64,000 bases of DNA from Phytoactinopolyspora mesophila (lineage in GTDB: Bacteria; Actinomycetota; Actinomycetes; Jiangellales; Jiangellaceae). The stretch covers positions 806,001 through 870,000 of the forward strand of contig NZ_WLZY01000001.1 in assembly GCF_010122465.1 (NCBI RefSeq), in the 5' to 3' direction. The notes under the pieces are model-generated. The model made no database searches. It was not told the DNA's origin and saw only the letters and a program-made list of their open reading frames with translations. Made by a program: the position numbers and the translations under genes. Below are positions 1 to 13,102 of this stretch, in pieces. Within the stretch, counting starts at the first letter, position 1; each line of letters begins with the position of its first letter.

Positions 1-441
1 GTGGCACGCTCTCATGCCGCGGGGCTGGCCAGCATCATCGAACCGGTATCCCGGGCGCCACGCGGTGGCGGGTCCTGGGACTGGGACGCCGGAGTGCTCG
101 CCGCGGTGAAAGAACTCGGTGACCTCGGGGCTGACCTGTACAAGGCGGAGGTTCCCCTGCACGGGTTGGGGGATGCCGCCGAGATTCGGCGCCGCTGCGC
201 CCAGATCACCGAGACGCTGGCCTCGCCGTGGGTCGTGTTGTCTTCCGGCGTTCCCGAAGACGCGTTCCCGCGGGCGGTGGAACTAGCCGTCGCCGAAGGC
301 GCGTCAGGCTTCCTTGCCGGCCGGGCCGTGTGGCAGTCGAGCATCGGCGCGTCCGACGTCGAAGCGACCCTACGAAGCAATGCGGTTTCGCGGCTGCGCA
401 GGCTGTGCGACGTCGTCGACGAAGGCATCACCAACCGCTGA
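1..441 (+). CDS. YihT-like class I aldolase, 3' end (5' cut by window edge)
   Basis: C-terminal 146 residues of a (beta/alpha)8 class I aldolase of the LacD/YihT family. The segments LGADLYKAEVPLHG, PWVVLSSGVPEDAFPRAV and GASGFLAGRAVW closely resemble, from memory, the end of enterobacterial YihT, which splits 6-deoxy-6-sulfofructose-1-phosphate into DHAP and sulfolactaldehyde. Family members are about 290 residues, so roughly half of the gene lies upstream of the window and the GTG at base 1 is probably internal. The stop is followed at once by an AGGAGGTG ribosome site for the isomerase gene, so the two are cotranscribed. The substrate is inferred; tagatose-bisphosphate or another ketose phosphate remains possible. 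Confidence 0.75.
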   Translation: MARSHAAGLASIIEPVSRAPRGGGSWDWDAGVLAAVKELGDLGADLYKAEVPLHGLGDAAEIRRRCAQITETLASPWVVLSSGVPEDAFPRAVELAVAEGASGFLAGRAVWQSSIGASDVEATLRSNAVSRLRRLCDVVDEGITNR

Positions 442-454
442 GGAGGTGTACTCC

Positions 455-1861
455 GTGCCCCGTGTCGTCTGCATCCCTACGGCGCGCCCCACGTTCGCCG
501 TCGAGACCGCGGCCAAACGCGCCGCCCAAGCTCGTACCCTCCTGGCCGAACTGGGTGCCGACGTCGTCGGGCCCACCAATCTGGTGATGACACCCGACGA
601 CGTCGAGGACGCGGCCGGATTCGTCGATCCGGACGCAGATCTCGTCGTCAACGTCTGTGCCTCCTTCTCCGACGCAACACCGGCGCTCAGGCTCTATCGC
701 GACCTCGACCGGCCGGTGCTGCTGTGGGCATTCCGCGAACCAGGGCCGGTGGGAGACCGGCTCTGGCTCAACTCACTGTGCGGCGCCAACTTGTTCGGCC
801 ACGCCCTGGTTGGACACGGTGGTGAAGTCCGGCTGCTCTACGGCGACCCGGAGGAACCTGCTGTCCGTGCCGCCTTGCGAGAGGCCTTGGCCGGCGCCCT
901 GCCCCCGGCACCTCAACTGCCGGCTGCCGCCGGCCGAGCCCGCGCGGCGTCAGACGACGTACTCCCGGCGCTGGACGGCCTGCGTGGCCGTCGCATCGGA
1001 GTGATCGGCGACGCGCCTGCCGGATTCACCCCGTGTGAATACGATCCGGAGATCATCACCCGCCTGTTCGGCGTCGAGGTCGATCAGCTCGACCTCGACG
1101 AGTTGATCGAGCGGATCCGCGACGCCGACCCCGCCGCTCGGGACCGCGAACTCGCCGAGGCGGTCGAACAGCGCCCGACGCTACGCCACCTCGACACCAC
1201 CCACGTCGAACCGTTCGCGGCGATGACCACCGTGCTCCGGGATTGGTCGGCCGGCCAGCTACTCTCCGGCGTCGCCCTGCGATGCTGGCCGGAGTTGCCT
1301 ACCGAGCTTGGTGCCTGTCCGTGCTCGGCGCTCTCCCGGCTGGCCGACGAGGGCACAGCCACCGCCTGTGAGCGCGACGTGTACGGCGCGCTGACCATGC
1401 TCGTCTTCGAGGCGCTCGGATCCGGTCCCACCTACCTCGTCGACACCGTGGACCTGCAGACCGACGACAACATCGTCCGCGTCTGGCATTGCGGGTCCGC
1501 CGCCACCAAACTCGCCGCCGAACCAGCGACAGCCACCCAGTCTGTCCATTGCAATCGCAAGATCGGCGTGGCAGGAGATTTTCCGCTCAAGACCGGCCGG
1601 GTGGTTCTCGGCCGGCTCACCGAAAACCCGGCACAGCCGGGCGGGCTACGGCTGCTCCTCACCTCGGGTGAGTCGGTTCCGGCGCCCAACCGATTCCAAG
1701 GCAACACCGCCGACGTCGTCCTCGACACGGCGGCCGACGAGTTCGTCCACGGTCTGGTGACCGGGGGGTTCCCGCACCACACCGTCATCGCCTGGCAGGA
1801 CGTCCGGCCCGCGCTTCGGACGGCCGCCGACCATCTCGGGATTCCCATCGTCGAGTGGTGA
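455..1861 (+). CDS. L-fucose/L-arabinose isomerase-fold sugar isomerase
   Basis: A 468-residue protein that should interconvert an aldose and a ketose. The C-terminal half holds the family's metal-site region: RCWPELPTELGACPCSALSRL followed by ACERDVYGALTMLVFEALG, matching the Glu and Asp ligand region of FucI-type enzymes. I chose GTG 455 because AGGAGGTG ends 6 bases before it; in-frame starts further upstream lie inside the aldolase gene. It sits between an aldolase and a sugar importer, so it probably does the first intracellular step. L-fucose-isomerase-fold enzymes have been reported as sulfoquinovose isomerases in Gram-positive sulfoglycolysis, which would fit the YihT-like neighbour. 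The substrate is not provable from sequence. Confidence 0.8.
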   Translation: MPRVVCIPTARPTFAVETAAKRAAQARTLLAELGADVVGPTNLVMTPDDVEDAAGFVDPDADLVVNVCASFSDATPALRLYRDLDRPVLLWAFREPGPVGDRLWLNSLCGANLFGHALVGHGGEVRLLYGDPEEPAVRAALREALAGALPPAPQLPAAAGRARAASDDVLPALDGLRGRRIGVIGDAPAGFTPCEYDPEIITRLFGVEVDQLDLDELIERIRDADPAARDRELAEAVEQRPTLRHLDTTHVEPFAAMTTVLRDWSAGQLLSGVALRCWPELPTELGACPCSALSRLADEGTATACERDVYGALTMLVFEALGSGPTYLVDTVDLQTDDNIVRVWHCGSAATKLAAEPATATQSVHCNRKIGVAGDFPLKTGRVVLGRLTENPAQPGGLRLLLTSGESVPAPNRFQGNTADVVLDTAADEFVHGLVTGGFPHHTVIAWQDVRPALRTAADHLGIPIVEW

Positions 1862-1889
1862 TCCCCAACGCATCTGGCAGGAGGCCACG

Positions 1890-3185
1890 ATGACCAAGGC
1901 TTTTTCGCAGGGAATGCACAGACGCGATCTGCTCCGGCTCCTCGGAATCGCCGGGCTCGGCTCGCTCGGCGTCTCATGCGCCGGACCGGGCAGCACCACG
2001 AACAGCGACGACGCCGCCCCGGAGGAGGGCGACGTCAGCGGAGCCATCTCCTTCGCGCACTGGCGTGCCGAAGACAGCGATGTCTTCGACGAGATCATCA
2101 GCGACTTCGCTGCCGAACACGACGACGTGAGCGTTCGGCAGGACATCTCGCCGTCCAACGACTACCAGTCCACCGCCCTGCAGCGAGTCCGCAGCGCTGC
2201 CATCGGTGACGCGTTCACCGCCTTCCGCGGTGCCCAGTTCGTGGACATGGCCAGCGCCGGGCTCTTCGCCGATCTCTCCGAGCAGCCTTTCGCGCAGAAC
2301 TACCAGGCCGACCTCATCACCGCCGGGCAGTCTGACGGCCGTCAGCTCGGCTTTCCCTACCAGCTCGTGTTCAACATGCCGGTGTTCAACGTCGACGCGT
2401 TCGAGGATGCCGGCATCTCCGAGCCGCCGGCCGACTGGGACGGGTTCCTGGACCTGCTCGACAAGCTCGCTTCGGCGGGATACACGCCGATGGCCTGGCC
2501 AGGCGGCGAGCCCGGGAATGCGGGACAGCTGATCAACTCGATGGTCATGAACAACGCACCGTCGGAGGACATGTTCACCGGCATGGAACAGGGTGAGTTC
2601 GACGCCACCGACGACTGGTTCGTCACCACGCTCAAGCAGTACGCCGAGCTTCGGCCGTTCTTCCAGAACAACGCCTCCGGGACGGCGGTCGAGCCCGCGC
2701 AGCAGATGTTCGCCGAGGGAGAGGCAGCGATCCTCGCCACCGGCTCGTACCACATCGCCGCCATCCGTGATCTGGGCGCGGAGTTTCCGATGGATCTCAT
2801 CTCCCCGATCACCGTCGGCGCGGACGAGGTCCAATTCCGCGGCGTGCACAACGCCACGTTCATCCTGGGCGTGAACACCGCCTCGGACAACCAGGCCACG
2901 GCCACCGCCTTCGTCGAATACCTGTCCCGGCCGGAGGTCGCCGCCGTGTACGCCGATGGCACCGGCCAGCACGTCACCGTCGAAGGTGTCGAGTACACCA
3001 GTCCCGATCTGCAGGCACTTGCCCACTGGCTCGACCAGCCGACCATCCTGGCGCCGAGGTTCCAGTTCAACGATCTCGACATGCGCTCGGCGATCGAAGA
3101 CGCCGCCATCCAGGTGGTCGGCGGGAAGGACCCGGAGCAGGCAGCGGCCGATGCCCAGCGCATCGTCGAGCAGAGGCGCGCGTGA
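1890..3185 (+). CDS. ABC sugar importer, solute-binding lipoprotein
   Basis: A 431-residue family-1 extracellular solute-binding protein. The N-terminus carries a twin-arginine pair (RR at 11-12, then DLLRLLGIAGLG) and a lipobox LGVSCAG with Cys30, so it is probably a Tat-exported lipoprotein anchored on the outer face of the membrane. The mature part has the usual pattern for this family: an early LAHW/FAHW-type strand, a MAWPGGEP ligand-loop region and a C-terminal helix rich in AAADAQ. The likely ribosome site is GGAGG about 8 bases before ATG 1890. Two permease genes follow directly; no ATPase gene is present in this operon. Confidence 0.88.
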   Translation: MTKAFSQGMHRRDLLRLLGIAGLGSLGVSCAGPGSTTNSDDAAPEEGDVSGAISFAHWRAEDSDVFDEIISDFAAEHDDVSVRQDISPSNDYQSTALQRVRSAAIGDAFTAFRGAQFVDMASAGLFADLSEQPFAQNYQADLITAGQSDGRQLGFPYQLVFNMPVFNVDAFEDAGISEPPADWDGFLDLLDKLASAGYTPMAWPGGEPGNAGQLINSMVMNNAPSEDMFTGMEQGEFDATDDWFVTTLKQYAELRPFFQNNASGTAVEPAQQMFAEGEAAILATGSYHIAAIRDLGAEFPMDLISPITVGADEVQFRGVHNATFILGVNTASDNQATATAFVEYLSRPEVAAVYADGTGQHVTVEGVEYTSPDLQALAHWLDQPTILAPRFQFNDLDMRSAIEDAAIQVVGGKDPEQAAADAQRIVEQRRA

Positions 3186-3198
3186 CCAGGGCTGCGGG

Positions 3199-4173
3199 AT
3201 GAATACCACCCCCACGAAGCCCGGAACCGGGCACTCTCCCCCACAACCACCCGCCGCGGCGCCCCATCCCCCGCCGCGGCGGGGCCGGCGGTCGTCATCG
3301 ACGGTGAGCCCACTGCTCTACCTGTTCCCGGTGCCAGCGCTGGTGCTGTACGCGATCTTCTTCGCCGTTCCCACGTTCCAGGCGTTCCAGTACGCGATGA
3401 CCAACTGGGACGGGTTCAGCGCGGCCTACGACAACGTCGGCTTGCGCAATTTCGAGCGGATCGCCACCAGCGACGACCTGTTCCGCAACGCCCTGACCAA
3501 CAACCTCAAGTTCGTACTCGTCGTGGTTGTCTTCCAGACGTTGTTCGCGTTGATCCTGGCTATTCTGCTGACGGTCAACACCCGCGGCTCGGTGATGCTG
3601 CGCGCGCTGTTCTTCTTCCCGACGATCCTGTCGTCGGTGTCGGTGGCCTTCATCTGGAAGTTCATGTACGACCCGAACTTCGGGCTGATCAACAGCGTGC
3701 TGGAGACGGTCGGCCTGGACGGTCTCACCGGCGCCTTTCTCGGCAATCCGAACCAGGCGATCTATTGGGTCGCGGTGACCCAGGTGTGGTTCCACGCCGG
3801 GCAGATGATGGTGATCTTCATCGCCGGCCTGCAGCAGGTACCGAAAGAGATGTACGAGGCCGCCGAGGTGGACGGAGCGTCGCGATGGGGCCGGTTCCGG
3901 CACGTCACCTGGCCGATGATCGCGCCCGCCACGGCGATTGTGATGGCGTACACCACGATTCAGTCGTTCAAGGCGTTCGACCTGATCCTCGGGCTGGGCG
4001 GCAACCCGCCGAAGCAGTCGATGGACATCCTGTCCACACGTATCTACGCCGGGTTCACCAACTCCGAGTTCGGCTACGCCGCGGCCGAGTCCATCTACTT
4101 CATGGTCGTGATCGCACTGATCACCTGGGCGCAGCGGCGCATCGTCCGGCTCACCCAAGCTGGTGCTCAGTGA
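3199..4173 (+). CDS. ABC sugar importer permease (MalF/UgpA type)
   Basis: A 324-residue inner-membrane permease with about six hydrophobic segments and the EAA loop (EAAEVDGASRWGRFRHVTWP) that docks the ATPase. ATG 3199 lies 13 bases after the binding-protein stop; the first 35 residues are an unusual Pro/Arg-rich cytosolic tail (PPQPPAAAPHPPPRRGRR). It pairs with the MalG-type permease just downstream to form the channel of one importer. No ATP-binding subunit is encoded nearby, so it probably relies on a shared MsmK-type ATPase. Confidence 0.88.
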   Translation: MNTTPTKPGTGHSPPQPPAAAPHPPPRRGRRSSSTVSPLLYLFPVPALVLYAIFFAVPTFQAFQYAMTNWDGFSAAYDNVGLRNFERIATSDDLFRNALTNNLKFVLVVVVFQTLFALILAILLTVNTRGSVMLRALFFFPTILSSVSVAFIWKFMYDPNFGLINSVLETVGLDGLTGAFLGNPNQAIYWVAVTQVWFHAGQMMVIFIAGLQQVPKEMYEAAEVDGASRWGRFRHVTWPMIAPATAIVMAYTTIQSFKAFDLILGLGGNPPKQSMDILSTRIYAGFTNSEFGYAAAESIYFMVVIALITWAQRRIVRLTQAGAQ

Positions 4174-4199
4174 ACACCTGCGCCTGAACGGAGGAAGAC

Positions 4200-5015
4200 A
4201 TGCGCTATCGGATCGGGCGCCGCGGCGTGCTGGCCGTGTATGCGGTGCTGATCGTCGTGCCCCTGCTGGTCGTCTTCACCGGCACGTTCAAGACACAGTC
4301 CGAGCTGTTCAGCTCGCCGTTCGGGCTACCGTCATCGTTCGACCCCGGCAACTACCACACCGTGCTCACCGAACGGAACCTTGGCCGGGCTTTCCTCAAC
4401 AGCACCCTGGTCATCATCTTCTCGGTGCCAATCACCCTGTTCCTGGCCAGCCTGGCCGCCTACGCGATCGCGCGCATCCCGGGCTGGAAGAGCTGGGCGA
4501 TCTTCACTTTTCTGGTGCTCGGGCTGGCCGTGCCCGCGCAGGCGAACATGATCCCGCAGTACGTCCTCTTCCAGAACCTGGGCCTGCTCAACAGCCTCAC
4601 CGGACTGGTCATCATCAACATCGTGGTGACGCTGCCGGTCTCGGTGTTCATCCTGACCGGTTTCATGAAGACACTGCCGCGGGAGATCTATGACGCCTCC
4701 AGCATCGACGGCGCGGGACCATGGAACACCTATCGGCGCATCGCACTGCCGCTCTCGATGCCGTCCGTCGCCGCCACCGCGATCTTCCTGTTCGTCATCC
4801 ACTGGAACGACCTGCTGTATCCCCTGTTGTTCATCCAGGAACCGAGCAAGAAGACACTGCCGGTGGCGCTGCTCGACTTCACCGGTGAGTTCCTCACCGA
4901 CTACCCCATGCTTTTCACCGGGGTGGTCATCGCGTCGGTGCCGCTCGTGCTGGCCTATCTGTTCATGCAGCGATGGTTCATCAGCGGGATGACCTCTGGA
5001 TCGGTGAAAGGATGA
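4200..5015 (+). CDS. ABC sugar importer permease (MalG/UgpE type)
   Basis: A 271-residue permease, second half of the importer channel. It shows about six membrane segments, an EAA-type loop (YDASSIDGAGPWNTYRRIALP) and the family's C-terminal signature SGMTSGSVKG. A clear GGAGGAAG ribosome site precedes ATG 4200. Its stop overlaps the start of the GH31 gene (ATGA at 5012-5015), indicating translational coupling of import and glycoside cleavage. Confidence 0.88.
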   Translation: MRYRIGRRGVLAVYAVLIVVPLLVVFTGTFKTQSELFSSPFGLPSSFDPGNYHTVLTERNLGRAFLNSTLVIIFSVPITLFLASLAAYAIARIPGWKSWAIFTFLVLGLAVPAQANMIPQYVLFQNLGLLNSLTGLVIINIVVTLPVSVFILTGFMKTLPREIYDASSIDGAGPWNTYRRIALPLSMPSVAATAIFLFVIHWNDLLYPLLFIQEPSKKTLPVALLDFTGEFLTDYPMLFTGVVIASVPLVLAYLFMQRWFISGMTSGSVKG

Positions 5016-7327
5016 CGATGACCGACGCGTACATGCTGCGCCAGGTGGTCGGCGTGCGGCGCCGCGGCGACGACGTCGTACTGTCCGTGGCAGCTCGCCC
5101 GGCCGTGCAGGTGGGCATCATGCCTGGTTACCTCACCGGCGAGCCGCTGGCCGAGCAGGGCATCGAGACCACGCTGCCGAATCTGCCCGATCTCGACCTG
5201 CCGCCGAGTGACCCGCGCGCCTACGCGGTGCGCATCTCCTGGGCGGCGCCCGACACCGTACGTCTGACCATCGCGCCGGAGAACAACCCGGTACTGGACG
5301 ATGACGGCACCTGGCTCGGCATCGTCACAGATCCTGCCCCGGCCGCAGCTCCGGTGCACGTCGAGGAGTCCGAGACAGCGGTGGTGATCGAGAGTTCCGC
5401 CTTGCGGGTGCGGGTGGGCCGCCGGCCATTCTCGATCATCGTCGACGATCTACTCACCGGCGCCCAGGTGCTGCGCACCGCCGAGCGGTTGCGCCAGGCC
5501 GCAGGTTTCCCCGTCGCACCACCGGCCATCGCGGACGCCCGCGGGATCAGCGTGCATCTGGAACTCGGCACCGGCGAGGACATTCTCGGCTTCGGTGAAC
5601 AGTTCGGCCGGCTGGTCAAGAACGGTCAGCAACTGACCCTCCGGTGCGAAGATGCCTTGGGCACCGGGACCGGGCTGGCGTACAAGCCGGTCCCCGTCTG
5701 GCACTCGTCGGCCGGTTACACCGGCTTCCTCAATACCGGTGCGACGGTCACCGCCGACGTCGGGCACACGAGACCGAGCGTGCTCGGTCTGAGTCTCGAC
5801 GACGACGCACTCGACCTGTACGTGGTCGGAGGCGCGCAGCCGCGGCGACGGCTGCACTCCTACACCGCGCTCACCGGACGCGGACCGGTTCCGCCGCTAT
5901 GGGCATTCGGGTATTGGATGGGGCGGTGCCGGTACCACTCGCGCGAGGAGATGCTCGATGTCGCCCGCCGCGCTCGCGAGCTGGAGGTGCCGCTCGATGT
6001 GCTGCATTGCGACCCGGATTGGCTCGTCGTCGACCGGCTCAACTGCGACTTCATCTGGAACAAGGACCGATTCGGCGACCGGCGCTCCTTCGTCCAGGAG
6101 CTCGAGAAGCTGCACACCCGGCTCTCCGTCTGGGAGCTGCCGTACCTGGACCCGGCCTCGCCCCGCTTCGCCGAAGCCGAGGCGAAAGGCTACTTGGTGC
6201 GATATCCCGACGGTGAACTCGCCACCATCCAGAAGACGCCTACCCCCGACGGTAGGCCGCGCGCATTGGTCGACTTCACCAATCCGGATGCGGTCGCATG
6301 GTGGCAGGGTATGCACGAGGAATTCCTCGCCGACGGCGTCGCGGTGTTCAAGACGGACTTCGGCGAAGCCCTACCCGACGGCACCGCGCCGCACAGCGGG
6401 CTGCCGGGCAACCACGCCCACAACCTGTACCCGCTGTATTACAACGGTGCGGTGTGGGCCGCTCTGGCCCGGCTCGGCGACGAGCCTGCCCTTGTATGGG
6501 GCCGAAGCGGCTGGGCCGGATCGCATCGCTACCCGGGACAGTGGGGCGGCGACGCCGAGTCCACGGTTGCCGGCATGCAGGCTACCGTCCGGGGCGGGCT
6601 GTCCTACGCGATGTCGGCACCGGGTTTCTGGAGCCACGACATCGGCGGGTTCTACGGGCCGGAGCTCACCCCGGAGTTGTACGTGCGCTGGACTCAGTTC
6701 GGCGCGCTGTCTCCCCTCATGCGTGCACACGGGCTGCGCCCGCGTGAGCCGTGGGAGTACGGCGAACACGCACTCGAGATCTGCCGGCGGTGGATCCGGC
6801 TGCGCTACGAGCTGCTGCCCTATCTGTGGCAGGTTGCCCACGAGTCAAGCCGCAACGGCTGGCCCGTGCTGAGACCGCTGGCGTTCGAGTACCCGGACGA
6901 CCCCGTCGCCGCCGGCGTCGACGGGCAGTTCCTGCTCGGTTCGGACCTGCTCGTCGTGCCGGTGTTCGACGACGGCGACACACCCGTCCGGCGCCGCTAC
7001 TACGTTCCGGAAGGTCGCTGGACCGACCTGTTCACCGGCGAAGCGCTCACCGGGCCACGGTTCGTGATCCAGGACATACCGCTGGACCGGATCCCCGTCC
7101 TGGTTCGCGACGGCACGATCCTCCCCCGTCTCCAGGTCGACGGTTCGATCCGCCGGACCGACGATCTGCTCGGACGGCCGTGGACGTTGCACCTCTTCGG
7201 CAACGTGGACCACCGTCATCAGCTCGTCGGGTTCGACACAACGGCTACCACCGTCGCCTTCGATGGTGATGCGGTCACGGCCGACGGCAGCCAGCCGATC
7301 GCGCCCACGGCGCGGCTTTGGATCTAA
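5012..7327 (+). CDS. GH31 alpha-glycosidase, YicI (alpha-xylosidase)-like
   Basis: A 771-residue retaining alpha-glycosidase. The nucleophile is Asp449 in FKTDFGE and the acid/base is Asp514 in QWGGDAES, 65 residues apart as in E. coli YicI. Other YicI-like marks are DFTNPDAVAWW, the RSGWAGSHRYPGQWGGD stretch and GFWSHDIGGF. The -1 subsite region reads LDVLHCDPDWLVVDRL; sulfoquinovosidases have a Gln-Asp-Trp and a Lys-Arg/Trp pair here that I do not see, so the substrate is more likely a xylosidic or other neutral alpha-glycoside. There is no signal peptide, so cleavage is cytosolic after import. ATG 5012 overlaps the permease stop; ATG 5018 is an alternative. Confidence 0.9.
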   Translation: MTMTDAYMLRQVVGVRRRGDDVVLSVAARPAVQVGIMPGYLTGEPLAEQGIETTLPNLPDLDLPPSDPRAYAVRISWAAPDTVRLTIAPENNPVLDDDGTWLGIVTDPAPAAAPVHVEESETAVVIESSALRVRVGRRPFSIIVDDLLTGAQVLRTAERLRQAAGFPVAPPAIADARGISVHLELGTGEDILGFGEQFGRLVKNGQQLTLRCEDALGTGTGLAYKPVPVWHSSAGYTGFLNTGATVTADVGHTRPSVLGLSLDDDALDLYVVGGAQPRRRLHSYTALTGRGPVPPLWAFGYWMGRCRYHSREEMLDVARRARELEVPLDVLHCDPDWLVVDRLNCDFIWNKDRFGDRRSFVQELEKLHTRLSVWELPYLDPASPRFAEAEAKGYLVRYPDGELATIQKTPTPDGRPRALVDFTNPDAVAWWQGMHEEFLADGVAVFKTDFGEALPDGTAPHSGLPGNHAHNLYPLYYNGAVWAALARLGDEPALVWGRSGWAGSHRYPGQWGGDAESTVAGMQATVRGGLSYAMSAPGFWSHDIGGFYGPELTPELYVRWTQFGALSPLMRAHGLRPREPWEYGEHALEICRRWIRLRYELLPYLWQVAHESSRNGWPVLRPLAFEYPDDPVAAGVDGQFLLGSDLLVVPVFDDGDTPVRRRYYVPEGRWTDLFTGEALTGPRFVIQDIPLDRIPVLVRDGTILPRLQVDGSIRRTDDLLGRPWTLHLFGNVDHRHQLVGFDTTATTVAFDGDAVTADGSQPIAPTARLWI

Positions 7328-7344: not shown

Positions 7345-8571
7345 TTAGCGCGAAGCCTGGTCGACGAGCGGGACAAGATCATCGAGTCCGTTGTCCAGCA
7401 CGGGCAGCTCTGGTGCGTCGCTTAAGGCAAGGTCAAGGTCCTTGAGCCCGCACGACGTGCCGAGCGCCACGACGACGCCGCTGCCCGGGCTGGTGGTCAA
7501 GTGCCTGGTGGCGGCCACTGCAACGGCGGACGAGGCTTCCATGAAGATCCCGTCGGCCGCCGCACAGGCCCGGTACTCGTCCATGAACTCGTCCGGATCG
7601 ATCGGGATCGCCTCGCCGTCGGTGTCCCAGAGGGCCTGCAATCCCTGCCAGTTGGCCACGTCGCTGCCCACGGAGAACGCCGCCGAAGGGCCGTAGTGCA
7701 CCCGGGTGCGTTCCTGCTCGGAGCGATCGCTCTTCTGCAAAGCAGTGCTGAAAGCCGCGGCCCGACTCGGTTCGGCGGCGACCAGCCGCGGACTCGCGCT
7801 GATCAATCCCGCATTGACCAGCTCCTTGAAGCCGCGGTGCACACCGCTGAGAACGTCAGCCCGTGACGTCGGAATGACGACGGTGTGCAGCTCATCGCCG
7901 AAATCGCGGGCCAGCTCGTAGGCGATGCTCTTGAGTCCCTCGATCGCATACGGGTGCCCACCGGGACCGGGCTCGGCGTAGTTCGTCAGCGGGAACCATC
8001 CGAGCTGCTCCACAGCCTGTTGCATGGTACCGTTGCGCGCCACGACGTCCGGGAAGCCGGCGACGACCGCTCCCGCCGCCACGATCTGCGCGTGGATGGC
8101 GGCCGGCAGGGATCCCTTGGTCACCACCACGCAGCGCAACCCGGCACGTGCCGCGTACGCCGCGGCGGAAGCCCCGGCGTTTCCGCTCGAGGCGGCGATC
8201 ACGGTATCGGCGCCCTGAGCGCGCGCCGTCGTCACCGCCGCCGCCATGTAGCGGTCTTTGTGCGACATCGTGGGGTTCGCGGCCTCGTTCTTCAGCCACA
8301 CCTCGGGCCGGCCGGGGCGAGGTGCGAGCCACACCGCGGGTGTGTTCCCCTCCCCCAGCGTGACGACCCCGGTTCCGGGCGGGACCGGTACGGCGCCTTC
8401 CCACCCCCACGGACCACCCGGGAACGACGCGAGGTCGTGCCCCCGGAGATCGGTCAGCGGCAGCTCGAGGTTGACCGTCACCCCCTCGGCGCGGCAGCGC
8501 TGACACCCCGCCGTTCCGGTTCCCTCATCGAGGCAGCGAGGGCATCGTAATACCGGTGCGGTTCCAGACAC
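7345..8571 (-). CDS. Threonine synthase-like PLP-dependent enzyme
   Basis: A 408-residue fold-type II PLP enzyme. Lys105 in NPTMSHKDRYM should form the Schiff base, and the glycine-rich phosphate loop is SSGNAGAS. A short N-terminal ribbon with Cys10, Cys13, Cys23 and Cys26 (CPRC...CQRC) may bind zinc, as in some threonine-synthase-like proteins. Its start lies 7 bases after the stop of the amine oxidase gene, so the two form an operon. Pairing with an amine oxidase rather than thrB or homoserine dehydrogenase suggests a catabolic or side role, not threonine biosynthesis. Confidence 0.75.
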   Translation of the reverse strand: MSGTAPVLRCPRCLDEGTGTAGCQRCRAEGVTVNLELPLTDLRGHDLASFPGGPWGWEGAVPVPPGTGVVTLGEGNTPAVWLAPRPGRPEVWLKNEAANPTMSHKDRYMAAAVTTARAQGADTVIAASSGNAGASAAAYAARAGLRCVVVTKGSLPAAIHAQIVAAGAVVAGFPDVVARNGTMQQAVEQLGWFPLTNYAEPGPGGHPYAIEGLKSIAYELARDFGDELHTVVIPTSRADVLSGVHRGFKELVNAGLISASPRLVAAEPSRAAAFSTALQKSDRSEQERTRVHYGPSAAFSVGSDVANWQGLQALWDTDGEAIPIDPDEFMDEYRACAAADGIFMEASSAVAVAATRHLTTSPGSGVVVALGTSCGLKDLDLALSDAPELPVLDNGLDDLVPLVDQASR

Positions 8572-8578
8572 GTCGTCG

Positions 8579-9739
8579 TCACCCTTCTCGCTTCTGATCC
8601 GGCCACGCCATCAGCTCCCGGTCAGGGGCAAAGGGCTCCAGGTCGAACGTGGATTTCCCGTCGGTGACGAGCTCGGCTCCCACTTCGCCGAACGCGGTGG
8701 CGTACTTGAATCCCAGCCCGGAGAACCCGCCGAGGATCACCACCCGGTCGGTGTTCTCCGCCCAGCCGGCAATCGGGCGATTGTCCGCGGTATAGCCGTC
8801 CATGTACGCCGAGACCCGGATCGGATCCGGGTGCAGGCCGGGCAGGTACTGCCGGATGATCTCGTTCAGGCCCCGCACTTCGTCGAGGCCCACCGTGCGG
8901 TCCAGCTGATCCGGATCGGGGACGATCTGTTTGAACGGACCCGTGGGCCCGGCCTTGACCAAGGCGCCGTCAACACTGGGGAACGCATAGAAACCGTCGT
9001 CCTCGGGGCGCAGCGTGATCGGGAACCGCTCAGGAGCGAAGGCCGCGGGATCGTCGGCTGCGTACCACACCTGGATCGGGCGGCGGACCTGGATCTTGCC
9101 GGCCAGCTGCGGCGCCAGCCGCTGCACCCATGGCCCGCCGGCCAGCACGACGTGCTGGTAGCGGTAACTGCGCTGCGCGGTGGTCACGGTGACGCCGTCG
9201 GCGTCGGGCTCCACGTGTGTGACCGGTGTGTGGGTGTGTACGACGGCGCCCAGCTCGGCCGCCCGCCGCGCGGCCGTCAGCACCGCGAGCTCCGGGCGCA
9301 GGAAACCCGCGTTGGGGTCGAGGACGCCGACGTCGCCCGGCCGCATCCGCTGTTGCGGGTACCGCCGCGCGACGTCCCGCTCGTCGAGCAGCTCGTGTTC
9401 CAGATCGAATGCGCGCACGGAATTCAGTACGTTGACGATGTGCGGTGCGTTCTCAGCTCCCAGCACCAGCTCGCCATTGAGGGTCAGCAACTCCCGGCCC
9501 GTCTCGGCCTCGAGCTGTTGCCAGAACGTCAACGACGCGGCGGCGAACGACACGTACACCGGTTCTCTGGGGCTGGTGCTCCGGAACATACGGGTCTCAC
9601 CACCCATGGCGCTTCGGTCGTGCGGCACGCCGTACTGGTCGAACCCATGCACCGCCAACCCGCGACCGGCCAGCCGCCACAACGCCATACTGCCGATCGA
9701 CCCGACTCCGATTACCGCCACATCCGCGTCAAAGCTCAC
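8579..9739 (-). CDS. FAD-dependent amine oxidase (sarcosine/N-methyltryptophan oxidase-like)
   Basis: A 386-residue DAO-superfamily flavoprotein. The Rossmann motif is VAVIGVGSIGSMALWRL near the N-terminus, followed by FDQYGVPHDRSAMGGETRMFR, typical of the monomeric sarcosine oxidase/SolA branch, and GGFSGLGFKYATAFGE near the C-terminus. In that branch a Cys in a C-M-Y-T-like motif carries FAD covalently; here the corresponding stretch reads SAYMDGYTADN with no Cys, so FAD is probably bound non-covalently. It is upstream of, and probably cotranscribed with, the threonine-synthase-like gene. The substrate is unknown, likely an N-methyl or secondary amino acid. Confidence 0.75.
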   Translation of the reverse strand: MSFDADVAVIGVGSIGSMALWRLAGRGLAVHGFDQYGVPHDRSAMGGETRMFRSTSPREPVYVSFAAASLTFWQQLEAETGRELLTLNGELVLGAENAPHIVNVLNSVRAFDLEHELLDERDVARRYPQQRMRPGDVGVLDPNAGFLRPELAVLTAARRAAELGAVVHTHTPVTHVEPDADGVTVTTAQRSYRYQHVVLAGGPWVQRLAPQLAGKIQVRRPIQVWYAADDPAAFAPERFPITLRPEDDGFYAFPSVDGALVKAGPTGPFKQIVPDPDQLDRTVGLDEVRGLNEIIRQYLPGLHPDPIRVSAYMDGYTADNRPIAGWAENTDRVVILGGFSGLGFKYATAFGEVGAELVTDGKSTFDLEPFAPDRELMAWPDQKREG

Positions 9740-11400: not shown

Positions 11401-12303
11401 TCACCTGGCTACGCCCGGCCGCGCGCCAGCAAACGTGACGCGGATCGAGTAGAGATCCCCGGCGGAGTTGGTGATGAACAGGTTGTTGCGCTTGGCCCCA
11501 CCGAAGGTGAGATTCGAGGCCGCTTCCGGCAGTCGCAACTTTCCGACGAGGGTGCCGTCCGGGTCGTAGCAGTGCAGGCCGTCCAGCGCCGCCGCCCAGA
11601 TACGCCCGAGATGGTCCAGCCGGATGCCGTCGAACCAGGACTCGGCGAACACATCGCCGCCGGATAGCTCGCCGTCGTCGCTCACCTCGAACACCCGCAT
11701 GTGCCGCCTACGGGTGTCGACGATGTACAGCCGGCTCTCATCGGCGGAGAAGGCAAGGCCGTTGGGACGGACGAAGTCGTCAGCGACGATCTCGATCTGA
11801 CCGGTAGCCGGATCGATCCGGTAGACATGATCGGCGCCGATCTCGCTCTCGGCCTCGATGCCTTCGTAGTACCCGGTGATGCCATATCGGGGATCGGTGA
11901 ACCAGATCGACCCGTCGGACCGGACCACGATGTCGTTCGGGCTGTTCAGCCGCTTTCCGTCGTATCGGTCCGCCAGTACGGTGACCGAGCCGTCGTGTTC
12001 GGTACGCGTCACCCGGCGGGCACCCTGCTCACACGTCAGCAGCCGGCCCTGCCGATCGATGGTATTGCCGTTGGCGTTTCCCGACGGCTCCCGGAAAACC
12101 CCGATGCTTCCCGTCGTCTCATCCCAGCGCAACAGCCGATCATTCGGAATGTCGCTCCACACGAGGTAACGGCCCGCTGGGAAATACACGGGCCCTTCGG
12201 TCTTCCGGCTACCGGAATGAAGGATCTCGACGTATTCATCTCCTCCGTAGGAAGCGAAACGGTCATCCAGGCTCTCGAAGTGAGCCTTGAATCTGTCGGT
12301 CAT
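11401..12303 (-). CDS. SMP-30/gluconolactonase/LRE-like lactonase
   Basis: A 300-residue six-bladed beta-propeller hydrolase. Metal-site landmarks are visible: Glu36 in RKTEGPVYF, Asn in RLNSPNDIVVRSDG and the ADESRLYIVDT strand with its Asp. No signal peptide is seen, so it is cytosolic. Such enzymes open sugar lactones made by sugar dehydrogenases, and two Gfo/Idh dehydrogenases are encoded a few kilobases away, although not in the same operon. The gene stands between the HNH gene (convergent) and a DUF998-like gene on the same strand. Confidence 0.85.
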   Translation of the reverse strand: MTDRFKAHFESLDDRFASYGGDEYVEILHSGSRKTEGPVYFPAGRYLVWSDIPNDRLLRWDETTGSIGVFREPSGNANGNTIDRQGRLLTCEQGARRVTRTEHDGSVTVLADRYDGKRLNSPNDIVVRSDGSIWFTDPRYGITGYYEGIEAESEIGADHVYRIDPATGQIEIVADDFVRPNGLAFSADESRLYIVDTRRRHMRVFEVSDDGELSGGDVFAESWFDGIRLDHLGRIWAAALDGLHCYDPDGTLVGKLRLPEAASNLTFGGAKRNNLFITNSAGDLYSIRVTFAGARPGVAR

Positions 12304-12346: not shown

Positions 12347-13102
12347 TCATCGGTGATCTTGACGCGATAAACCAGCGGGCGAACCTGCCTCGTGAGCACT
12401 CGGCCCATCACGTAGACGTTTGCGTCCACGCTCTTTCATCCCGAGCCGGATCAGGTGGATGGCGAGCATGCAGACCCAGATACACCCCACGACCACGATG
12501 GTTCGCTGCAGCGCGCCCACCCATTCGGCGAACTCCCCGGAGATCATCAGCACGAACAGCAGCAACGTGAGCATCCCGCTGGCCACCGACGGCAGCCGCA
12601 GGTAACGCCAACCGTCCCGCCGGCGCATGGCCCGCGACAACAGAAGCTGAGACGCACCGGCGAACATGAAGGTCGCGGCACTGGCGACGTCGTGCACCGC
12701 GTGATACCCGGAGATCTCCCCCAAGCTGACTCTGGCCGAGCAGTCCGGCAACTGGAGACCACAATCGTGGCGCATCGAGCCCGCCACCAGCACACCGAGC
12801 CCACTCAGCAAAACCCCGAACGAGGCGATGCGCCCGAGCGGATCGGGAAACGAATGGACTAGCCCGGCACCCAGCGACATGACCCCGATTCCGAACAGGA
12901 CCAATGCGGCGATCATGATCTCGGGGTTCGCCGCCCCGACGGCAGCCAGCGAACTGATGTAGTCGCTCCGGGGATCGTACTGATCTTGCACTCGGCCTGC
13001 GATCAGCCATCCAGCCGTGAAGACAAGCGCCCCGGCGATGGACGGCACCGCCAGCCACGATGACACTGCCTGCCGACGGGACCACTCCGACAACACCGCC
13101 AT
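12347..13102 (-). CDS. DUF998-like integral membrane protein
   Basis: A 251-residue protein with about six membrane segments. After the first one comes the family-like motif YDPRSDYISSLAAVG, and HDCG plus GYHAVHDVASAATFMFAGASQ in the middle of the chain, which match my memory of DUF998 proteins. The C-terminus is a short basic cytosolic tail. The function of the family is unknown. It precedes the lactonase gene on the same strand with a 43-bp gap, so cotranscription is possible but a functional link is not evident. Confidence 0.65.
   Translation of the reverse strand: MAVLSEWSRRQAVSSWLAVPSIAGALVFTAGWLIAGRVQDQYDPRSDYISSLAAVGAANPEIMIAALVLFGIGVMSLGAGLVHSFPDPLGRIASFGVLLSGLGVLVAGSMRHDCGLQLPDCSARVSLGEISGYHAVHDVASAATFMFAGASQLLLSRAMRRRDGWRYLRLPSVASGMLTLLLFVLMISGEFAEWVGALQRTIVVVGCIWVCMLAIHLIRLGMKERGRKRLRDGPSAHEAGSPAGLSRQDHR

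Follow-up and report, generated by a model that had tools for sequence, protein, structure and literature searches.

Sulfoquinovose (SQ) is an abundant sulfur sugar of plant membranes and one of the most abundant organosulfur compounds. In the 64,000-nucleotide stretch of the Phytoactinopolyspora mesophila genome analyzed here (the window; bases 806001-870000 of contig C1 in a 6.5 Mb actinobacterial genome of 27 contigs), and in the sequence immediately upstream, lies a gene cluster that resembles described systems of SQ catabolism. One of its nearest described counterparts is the cluster for Embden-Meyerhof-Parnas-type sulfoglycolysis (sulfo-EMP) of Arthrobacter sp. AK01 and AK04 (Kaur 2022, PMC8873060), which is likewise actinobacterial and likewise combines an ABC importer, a YihT aldolase, a PfkB kinase, and a sulfolactaldehyde (SLA) dehydrogenase. 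The Arthrobacter strains use a YihS isomerase and excrete sulfolactate, whereas the present locus encodes a putative SftI-type isomerase, a glycoside hydrolase family 31 (GH31) protein from the YicI side of that family, and a SuyAB-like sulfolactate sulfo-lyase. The same study describes actinobacterial sulfo-EMP clusters lacking GH31, and subsequent work added the NAD-dependent sulfoquinovosidase SqgA of strain AK01, a GH188 enzyme where the present locus has a GH31, so that two sulfoquinovosidase classes are described, the classical GH31 (YihQ) and GH188 (Kaur 2023, PMC10755693).

SuyAB has also been linked previously to sulfosugar degradation. A cluster of Actinobacteria bacterium IMCC26103 holds SuyAB, a sulfofructose-1-phosphate (SFP) aldolase, a kinase, a fucose isomerase, and a GH188 protein (Y160) in place of the GH31, and in the authors' view it may represent a new pathway (Backlund and Higgins 2024, PMC11465081). 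In Paracoccus wurundjeri, SlcC, ComC, and SuyAB follow a sulfosugar upper half within one bacterium, as here, but the sugar is sulfofucose, the upper half is of the Entner-Doudoroff (ED) type, and the organism is a member of the Proteobacteria (PMC12421959). The transaldolase (sulfo-TAL) clusters of Thermotogae and Chloroflexi likewise extend sulfoglycolysis to SuyAB, with a transaldolase upper half instead of the kinase and YihT found here (PMC9594981), and SuyAB-extended sulfo-TAL clusters as well as hybrid sulfo-EMP combinations in Actinobacteria have been described (PMC9594981, PMC12890257). The pathway logic is therefore already known, and the gene set nearly so, with related SuyAB clusters in print.

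The P. mesophila locus very probably encodes a near-complete dismantling of SQ in one cell, comprising import, glycoside hydrolysis, the upper half of sulfo-EMP, and the conversion of sulfolactate to pyruvate and sulfite. This reading builds on direct observations, namely the presence, order, and homology of the genes, their conserved linkage, and the clade and residues of the GH31 protein. A first-pass annotation of the window had proposed a sulfosugar catabolic operon made up of the end of a YihT-like aldolase gene, an isomerase, a lipoprotein-type importer, and a coupled GH31. All of these genes are present, in that order and at those coordinates, the tests proposed with the annotation came out in favor of a sulfosugar, and the observation is confirmed as real. 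The annotated stretch covers only half of the system; the window opens inside the aldolase gene, and the SuyAB/SlcC/ComC module lies upstream, in a stretch designated L003 (C1:792001-812000; window positions are L003 positions minus 14000).

The newest element is the GH31 protein, a candidate third sulfoquinovosidase lineage. Its gene (window 5012-7327, + strand; PF01055) begins at an ATG within an ATGA that overlaps the stop codon of the preceding permease gene; residue numbers used here count from the start of the open reading frame at 4973 (784 residues), and 13 is to be subtracted for the likely start at 5012, which gives 771 residues. The annotation had likened the protein to YicI, and by score this is true (about 360 bits to YicI versus about 139 to YihQ), as it is by structural comparison (Z of 41 to YicI and 35 to 36 to solved sulfoquinovosidases), yet the protein forms a clade of its own. 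In an IQ-TREE phylogeny of 60 rows, the 22 rows of this clade grouped with support of 100/100, separately from the five YihQ-type rows (100/100) and apart from the YicI group. The branches are long, which leaves the sister group of the clade uncertain (L058/L059 at 86/84, flagged as long branches). The protein scored 470 bits against the alpha-xylosidase equivalog model, below its cut-off of 606, and 228 against a model that YihQ itself meets at 1247.

The PF01055 domain, structural matches up to Z 41, and the invariant D462 and D527, assigned by alignment as nucleophile and acid/base, mark the protein as a retaining glycosidase. E. coli YicI is the best match in both sequence and fold, and the equivalents of its K414, W345, D416, and D482 are kept, but F277 is replaced by R, C307 by P, F308 by D, and F313 by R. 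We take F277 and F308 of YicI to be xyloside-specific residues, and with both replaced and a score below the equivalog cut-off the protein falls outside the YicI-type alpha-xylosidases. All rows of the clade carry R320 for F277, P348 for C307, and D349 for F308, while in a smaller alignment 13 of 13 distant rows keep F in the F277 column. In addition, R320 and R355 are invariant in 22 of 22 clade rows, and R355 pairs with YihQ R301 in three of four alignments (one MAFFT and two profile alignments). R301, W304, and Y508 of YihQ, which we take to be its sulfonate-binding residues, a role reportedly established by Speciale in 2016 and Abayakoon in 2018, are all invariant in the five YihQ-type rows. 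With E. coli YihQ and other GH31 sulfoquinovosidases the protein thus has in common the fold, the two catalytic aspartates, and, in those three alignments, the arginine at the R301 position; it differs from YihQ in sequence (28% identity), in its separate clade, in the absence of W304 and Y508, and in the additional R320, which is invariant in the clade though not exclusive to it. Arginines are common in sulfonate-binding proteins (PMC10599462). We infer that the clade may comprise sulfoquinovosidases that reach sulfonate binding through a residue set of their own, and we consider the P. mesophila protein a strong candidate representative of a third lineage of such enzymes. In full, this lineage would probably have arisen on the YicI side of GH31, independently of YihQ and GH188; the F277 to R and F308 to D changes would have opened the xylosidase C6 pocket, a second arginine would have come to lie close to or at the place of YihQ R301, and the enzymes would serve patchily distributed actinobacterial clusters, some of which would take SQ all the way to sulfite.

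Conserved gene linkage ties this clade to sulfoglycolysis. Among the best 80 of 86 GH31 relatives retained from a scan of the genome collection, 19 are 56-78% identical to the query and 61 are at most 41% identical, with none between; relatives on plasmids reach 43.4% at most among the best 15 of 206 records. Removal of two duplicates (L063 and L072) from the 19 and addition of four further loci (L054 and L055, which are those duplicates, with L056 and L057) gave a set of 21 related clusters for the linkage count, with L058-L061 excluded. By identity thresholds of our own, and with only 1.4 kb available downstream in L078, a YihT aldolase and a DeoR regulator were found in all 21, the solute-binding protein and each permease in 20, the kinase in 18, and the aldehyde dehydrogenase (ALDH) in 16. 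Every one of the 21 holds exactly one type of SQ isomerase, SftI in 18 and YihS in three. By comparison, none of 62 distant GH31 loci (L062 and L082-L142) passed for any of the 18 queries, nor did these loci hold a YihT, SftI, YihS, or SuyB match covering half of the query at E 1e-8. The joint occurrence and order of GH31, YihT, and SQ isomerase are far from chance. The annotation had allowed that the aldolase resemblance might be misleading in view of the YicI-like glycosidase; this concern falls away because the GH31 forms its own clade and is accompanied by sulfoglycolysis genes in each of the 21 other clusters.

Some features of the sister clusters were not common to all. No kinase was recognized at the threshold used in L054, L075, and L079, where a sulfofructose kinase of another kind may act or the pathway may be divided differently. 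In 12 of the 21 clusters, the surroundings of GH31 include a conserved gene whose product weakly matches Peptidase_M24, often placed between GH31 and ALDH (for example L064:12249-13418 and L067:12375-13454); it was not found in L003. In two sister clusters, GH116-type glycosidases adjoin the DeoR gene (L054:7050-9497 and L055:13549-16065) and could be beta-sulfoquinovosidases or other glycoside-processing enzymes.

The aldolase gene (L003:13524-14441, C1:805524-806441, + strand; its 3' part is window 1-441) overlaps the stop codon of the kinase gene by one base, and its product is a class I SFP aldolase of the YihT type. It scored 275-279 bits against YihT structures (7ag1, E 4e-82) and at most 58.5 bits against a LacD-type tagatose-bisphosphate aldolase, failed the lacD equivalog model (47 bits against 432), and is 48% identical to E. 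coli YihT over 283 residues with the YK-E-P lysine motif common to both; the choice between YihT and LacD that the annotation had posed thus falls to YihT. The protein also has a tagatose-aldolase subfamily match below the NCBIfam cut-off, which does not count against it because E. coli YihT, run as a control, gives the same pattern. A kinase had been predicted upstream, and a PfkB-family gene (PF00294) is present there on the + strand (L003:12586-13524; start probably at 12616, after GGAGG). The closest solved relative of its product is the sulfofructose kinase YihV (115 bits, 34% identity), followed by ribokinase at 90 bits, in keeping with a sulfofructose kinase of the YihV type.

The putative SftI/SqvD-type sulfoquinovose isomerase (window 455-1861, + strand) has a GTG start following GGAGG at 442-446. 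Its sole NCBIfam match is the SftI sulfoquinovose isomerase model NF048012, and the L-fucose isomerase fold that the annotation had assigned to it was borne out by a predicted model (pLDDT 85.4). Over residues about 161-468, the model matched 19 L-arabinose, L-fucose, and D-arabinose isomerase entries at Z 25.8-29.0 (281-287 residues, root-mean-square deviation 2.5-3.0), with the next entry at Z 9.4, confirming the L-fucose/L-arabinose isomerase fold at the level of the model. In the sister clusters of Ruania (L076), Nesterenkonia (L077), and Cryobacterium (L078), no SftI-type gene was found; instead, these clusters encode a YihS protein with 61-63% identity to the E. coli enzyme. The replacement of the SftI-type gene by YihS, an established SQ isomerase, argues more strongly than any other single observation that SQ would be the substrate. 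No YihS match was found anywhere in the P. mesophila genome in a search that lacked a positive control of its own, though the same query matched L076-L078.

The importer genes lie between the isomerase and GH31 genes, all on the + strand, and encode a lipoprotein-type solute-binding protein of a sugar ABC importer (window 1890-3185) and two permeases with the Pfam BPD_transp_1 domain (window 3199-4173, its start inferred and 3256-4173 searched, and window 4200-5015). No ABC ATPase was found among the genes of the cluster.

Upstream, five genes on the - strand form a lower module that reads divergently from the sulfo-EMP arm in the order SuyA-SuyB-ALDH-SlcC-ComC, each named by resemblance. SuyA and SuyB are encoded as two separate subunits, a 102-residue SAF-domain protein (L003:11397-11705) whose gene overlaps that of a 386-residue UxaA-type GD_AH protein (L003:10258-11418). 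Among the best 30 of 309 records, SuyB is 69% identical to plasmid-borne proteins of Rhodococcus, 60% to one of Methylobacterium, 58.9% to one of Cupriavidus pinatubonensis HN-2, and 56-58% to others in Sinorhizobium, Caballeronia, Paracoccus, and further genera; after these 13 plasmid records the identity drops to 39.6% for the next match. In C. pinatubonensis HN-2, hpsN and hpsO are encoded within a few genes of this copy. SuyB gave only 128 bits to the galactarate dehydratase 6u7l. The strain of C. pinatubonensis in which SuyAB was identified is JMP134 (PMC12890257). By these comparisons the P. mesophila protein belongs to the sequence group of characterized SuyB proteins, apart from the altronate and galactarate dehydratases.

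The remaining genes of the module encode an SLA-dehydrogenase-like ALDH (L003:8789-10213), an SlcC-like D-2-hydroxyacid dehydrogenase (L003:7748-8731), and a ComC-like Ldh_2 protein (L003:6711-7751). Racemization by SlcC and ComC followed by SuyAB has been described (PMC9594981). The gene order recurs in R. koreensis, Actinophytocola, Haloactinopolyspora, and Phytoactinopolyspora. On the R. koreensis plasmid two genes are inserted (SuyA-SuyB-ALDH-MFS-YihU-like-hydroxyacid dehydrogenase-Ldh, where MFS is a major facilitator superfamily transporter), with identities of 57, 70, 72, 59, and 64% to SuyA, SuyB, ALDH, SlcC, and ComC, respectively. In Actinophytocola (L178) the module stands in line with the SQ cluster on one strand; in Haloactinopolyspora (L180) about 4 kb separate it from DeoR, and in Phytoactinopolyspora halophila (L179) it occupies a different contig from the SQ cluster. 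Among the 21 other genomes of the GH31 clade, three have SuyB at 70-72%, seven have only matches at or below 36%, and 11 have none; the clade genomes without SuyB at 70% or above, among them relatives in Kribbella and Pseudonocardia, may end the pathway at sulfolactate.

Beyond the lower module lie a LysR gene (L003:5693-6640) and, divergent from it, a gene for a YeiH/PF03601 putative sulfate exporter (L003:4623-5702); a YeiH-like protein with a divergent LysR gene also flanks the cluster in P. halophila. One match of the sulfite-oxidase type (Mo-co_dimer) above cut-off was found in the genome, away from the cluster. In L057, a TauE/SafE sulfite exporter gene follows ALDH (L057:17545-18273), while P. 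mesophila has the YeiH-type protein near the lower module instead. The DeoR regulator (L003:11727-12572, - strand) is encoded between the two divergent arms.

These genes can be assembled into a pathway in which every reaction, with its stereochemistry and cofactors, and the regulation are predicted from sequence. The ABC importer would bring in SQ glycosides such as SQ-glycerol, and the GH31 would hydrolyze them to SQ with retention through D462 and D527, with R320 and R355 binding the sulfonate at the site where the C6 pocket is closed in an alpha-xylosidase. SftI would isomerize SQ to sulfofructose, the PfkB kinase would phosphorylate this to sulfofructose-1-phosphate, and the YihT aldolase would cleave the product to dihydroxyacetone phosphate and (S)-sulfolactaldehyde. 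The ALDH would then oxidize (S)-sulfolactaldehyde to (S)-sulfolactate, SlcC and ComC would invert the latter through sulfopyruvate to (R)-sulfolactate, and SuyAB would release pyruvate and sulfite. Oxidation of the sulfite to sulfate would probably follow, with the neighboring YeiH-type protein as the exporter, and DeoR, from its position, is the likely regulator.

Several observations weigh against parts of this scheme. The matches of SftI, ComC, and YeiH fall below the curated NCBIfam cut-offs (279.5 against 700, 171 against 500, and 156.8 against 232.6 bits), the sole NCBIfam match of SuyB is galactarate dehydratase, far below its cut-off, and a YihR query revealed no SQ mutarotase in L003. 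The first-pass annotation had proposed a look upstream for an SLA dehydrogenase or reductase, and an SLA-dehydrogenase-like ALDH is indeed there, but its top-scoring relatives are succinate-semialdehyde dehydrogenases, and the substrate is assigned from gene context. For the GH31, the YihQ-type residue set is incomplete, W304 being C or T and Y508 being F in the clade, and in the fourth, larger alignment a gap opened such that R355 was not paired with R301. The larger alignment also has R at the R320 column in distant GH31 rows L049-L051, so R320 is no marker by itself; these rows form a distant GH31 group from the same bacterial family with R-Y at the R320-Y321 columns. Several of the 62 distant loci are short contigs (such as L087, L122, and L136). 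Finally, L058 and L059, outside the linkage count, hold a GH31 at 39-41% identity with an SftI-like isomerase at 34-35%, together with an aldolase match of 28% or none, and lack both R320 and R355. The isomerase family alone is therefore no proof of SQ. The isomerase of L007, the same gene as in L058, scored 218 bits against the SftI NCBIfam model. L058:11950-18560 and L059:1400-9160 come from high-GC actinobacterial genomes of about 1.7 Mb in which an SlcC-like gene is also present; their GH31 may be sister to the clade, and the loci may represent a related but different pathway.

The closeness of the GH31 to YicI in bits and in Z, the loss of W304 and Y508, and the arginine in the three distant rows would all suit a cluster that degrades SQ while its GH31 is an ordinary alpha-xylosidase or alpha-glucosidase acting on a side substrate, with another enzyme such as a GH188 cleaving SQ glycosides. 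We consider this unlikely, given the sub-cut-off alpha-xylosidase score, the R and D that stand in place of F277 and F308 throughout the clade, the separate position of that clade, and the linkage of 21 of 21 against 0 of 62. The protein of this genome that matches YihQ best is, moreover, another GH31 (29% identity), and no YihQ orthologue was seen elsewhere in the genome; the cluster proteins scanned had no match to the Gfo/Idh/MocA family, although no search was aimed at GH188. Further GH31 proteins are encoded in the same genome (C9:125372-130349, C9:77459-79195, and C14:46992-48716), one of them 38% identical to the clade member described here. It is also rather improbable that the sulfo-EMP arm is real but merely adjoins a lower module serving external sulfolactate or 2,3-dihydroxypropane-1-sulfonate, with SQ taken only to sulfolactate. 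The solitary module on the R. koreensis plasmid with its MFS transporter and YihU-like dehydrogenase, its separate contig in P. halophila, its divergent orientation in P. mesophila, and the 18 of 22 clade genomes (P. mesophila counted) without SuyB at 70% or above would fit such an arrangement, and the last of these also counts against the one-cell reading. However, the module lies within about 4 kb of the SQ cluster on the same contig in three of the four genomes having both, in line on one strand in Actinophytocola, and its ALDH is the only SLA dehydrogenase candidate seen in L003.

Readings that change the substrate fare worse. The L-fucose isomerase fold, and the tandem sulfofucose-SuyAB pathway in Paracoccus, whose cluster has PF00294 and PF01791 genes (PMC12421959), could be taken to indicate another sulfosugar such as sulfofucose (6-sulfo-D-galactose) degraded by a tagatose-like EMP route. 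This is disfavored and very improbable, as three sister clusters with the same types of GH31, aldolase, and kinase carry a close YihS in place of the isomerase, and the known sulfofucose route is of the ED type, with neither sulfotagatose nor isomerase activity found there (PMC12421959). A pathway without sulfur, for tagatose, galactitol, or an altronate-type sugar acid, would draw on the family overlap with LacD/DeoC, PfkB, UxaA-like, and DeoR proteins; it is scarcely credible, with aldolase bits nearly five times higher to YihT than to LacD-type enzymes, SuyB on the sulfo-lyase side of the identity gap, and YihS in place of the isomerase in relatives. We rejected the LacD/tagatose and altronate readings on the aldolase and SuyB scores.

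Downstream of GH31, the opposite strand encodes a PALP-family (threonine-synthase-like) enzyme (window 7345-8571), a DAO-family FAD oxidoreductase (8579-9739), and an SMP-30/gluconolactonase (11401-12303). At gathering scores, Rfam revealed no known RNA element in L003, and no operator-like repeats of at least 8 bases were present in the two short stretches inspected, L003:12560-12620 and 11690-11740. The promoter scan found none against 0.7 expected, and four terminator-like elements were found against 2.8 expected.

In the open-access literature searched, we found no report tying a YicI-side GH31 to sulfoglycolysis, a weak absence, as key papers on GH31 subfamilies and sulfoquinovosidase structures fall outside that scope. 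The GH31 clade appeared at E 1e-200 or better in 6 of 393 genomes from an even draw of the class and, among five genomes of the genus, in this one only; an accessory and patchy trait of this kind suggests horizontal movement. One-cell mineralization of SQ was still called unusual in 2025 (PMC12421959), and the SuyAB-linked version of the cluster, if correctly read, would allow single cells of a soil-type actinobacterium to mineralize SQ. If the further GH31 lineage is real, actinobacteria that use SQ through an enzyme resembling an alpha-xylosidase can escape surveys relying on YihQ and GH188 as markers, and the family would be a clear example of one fold acquiring sulfonate recognition twice.

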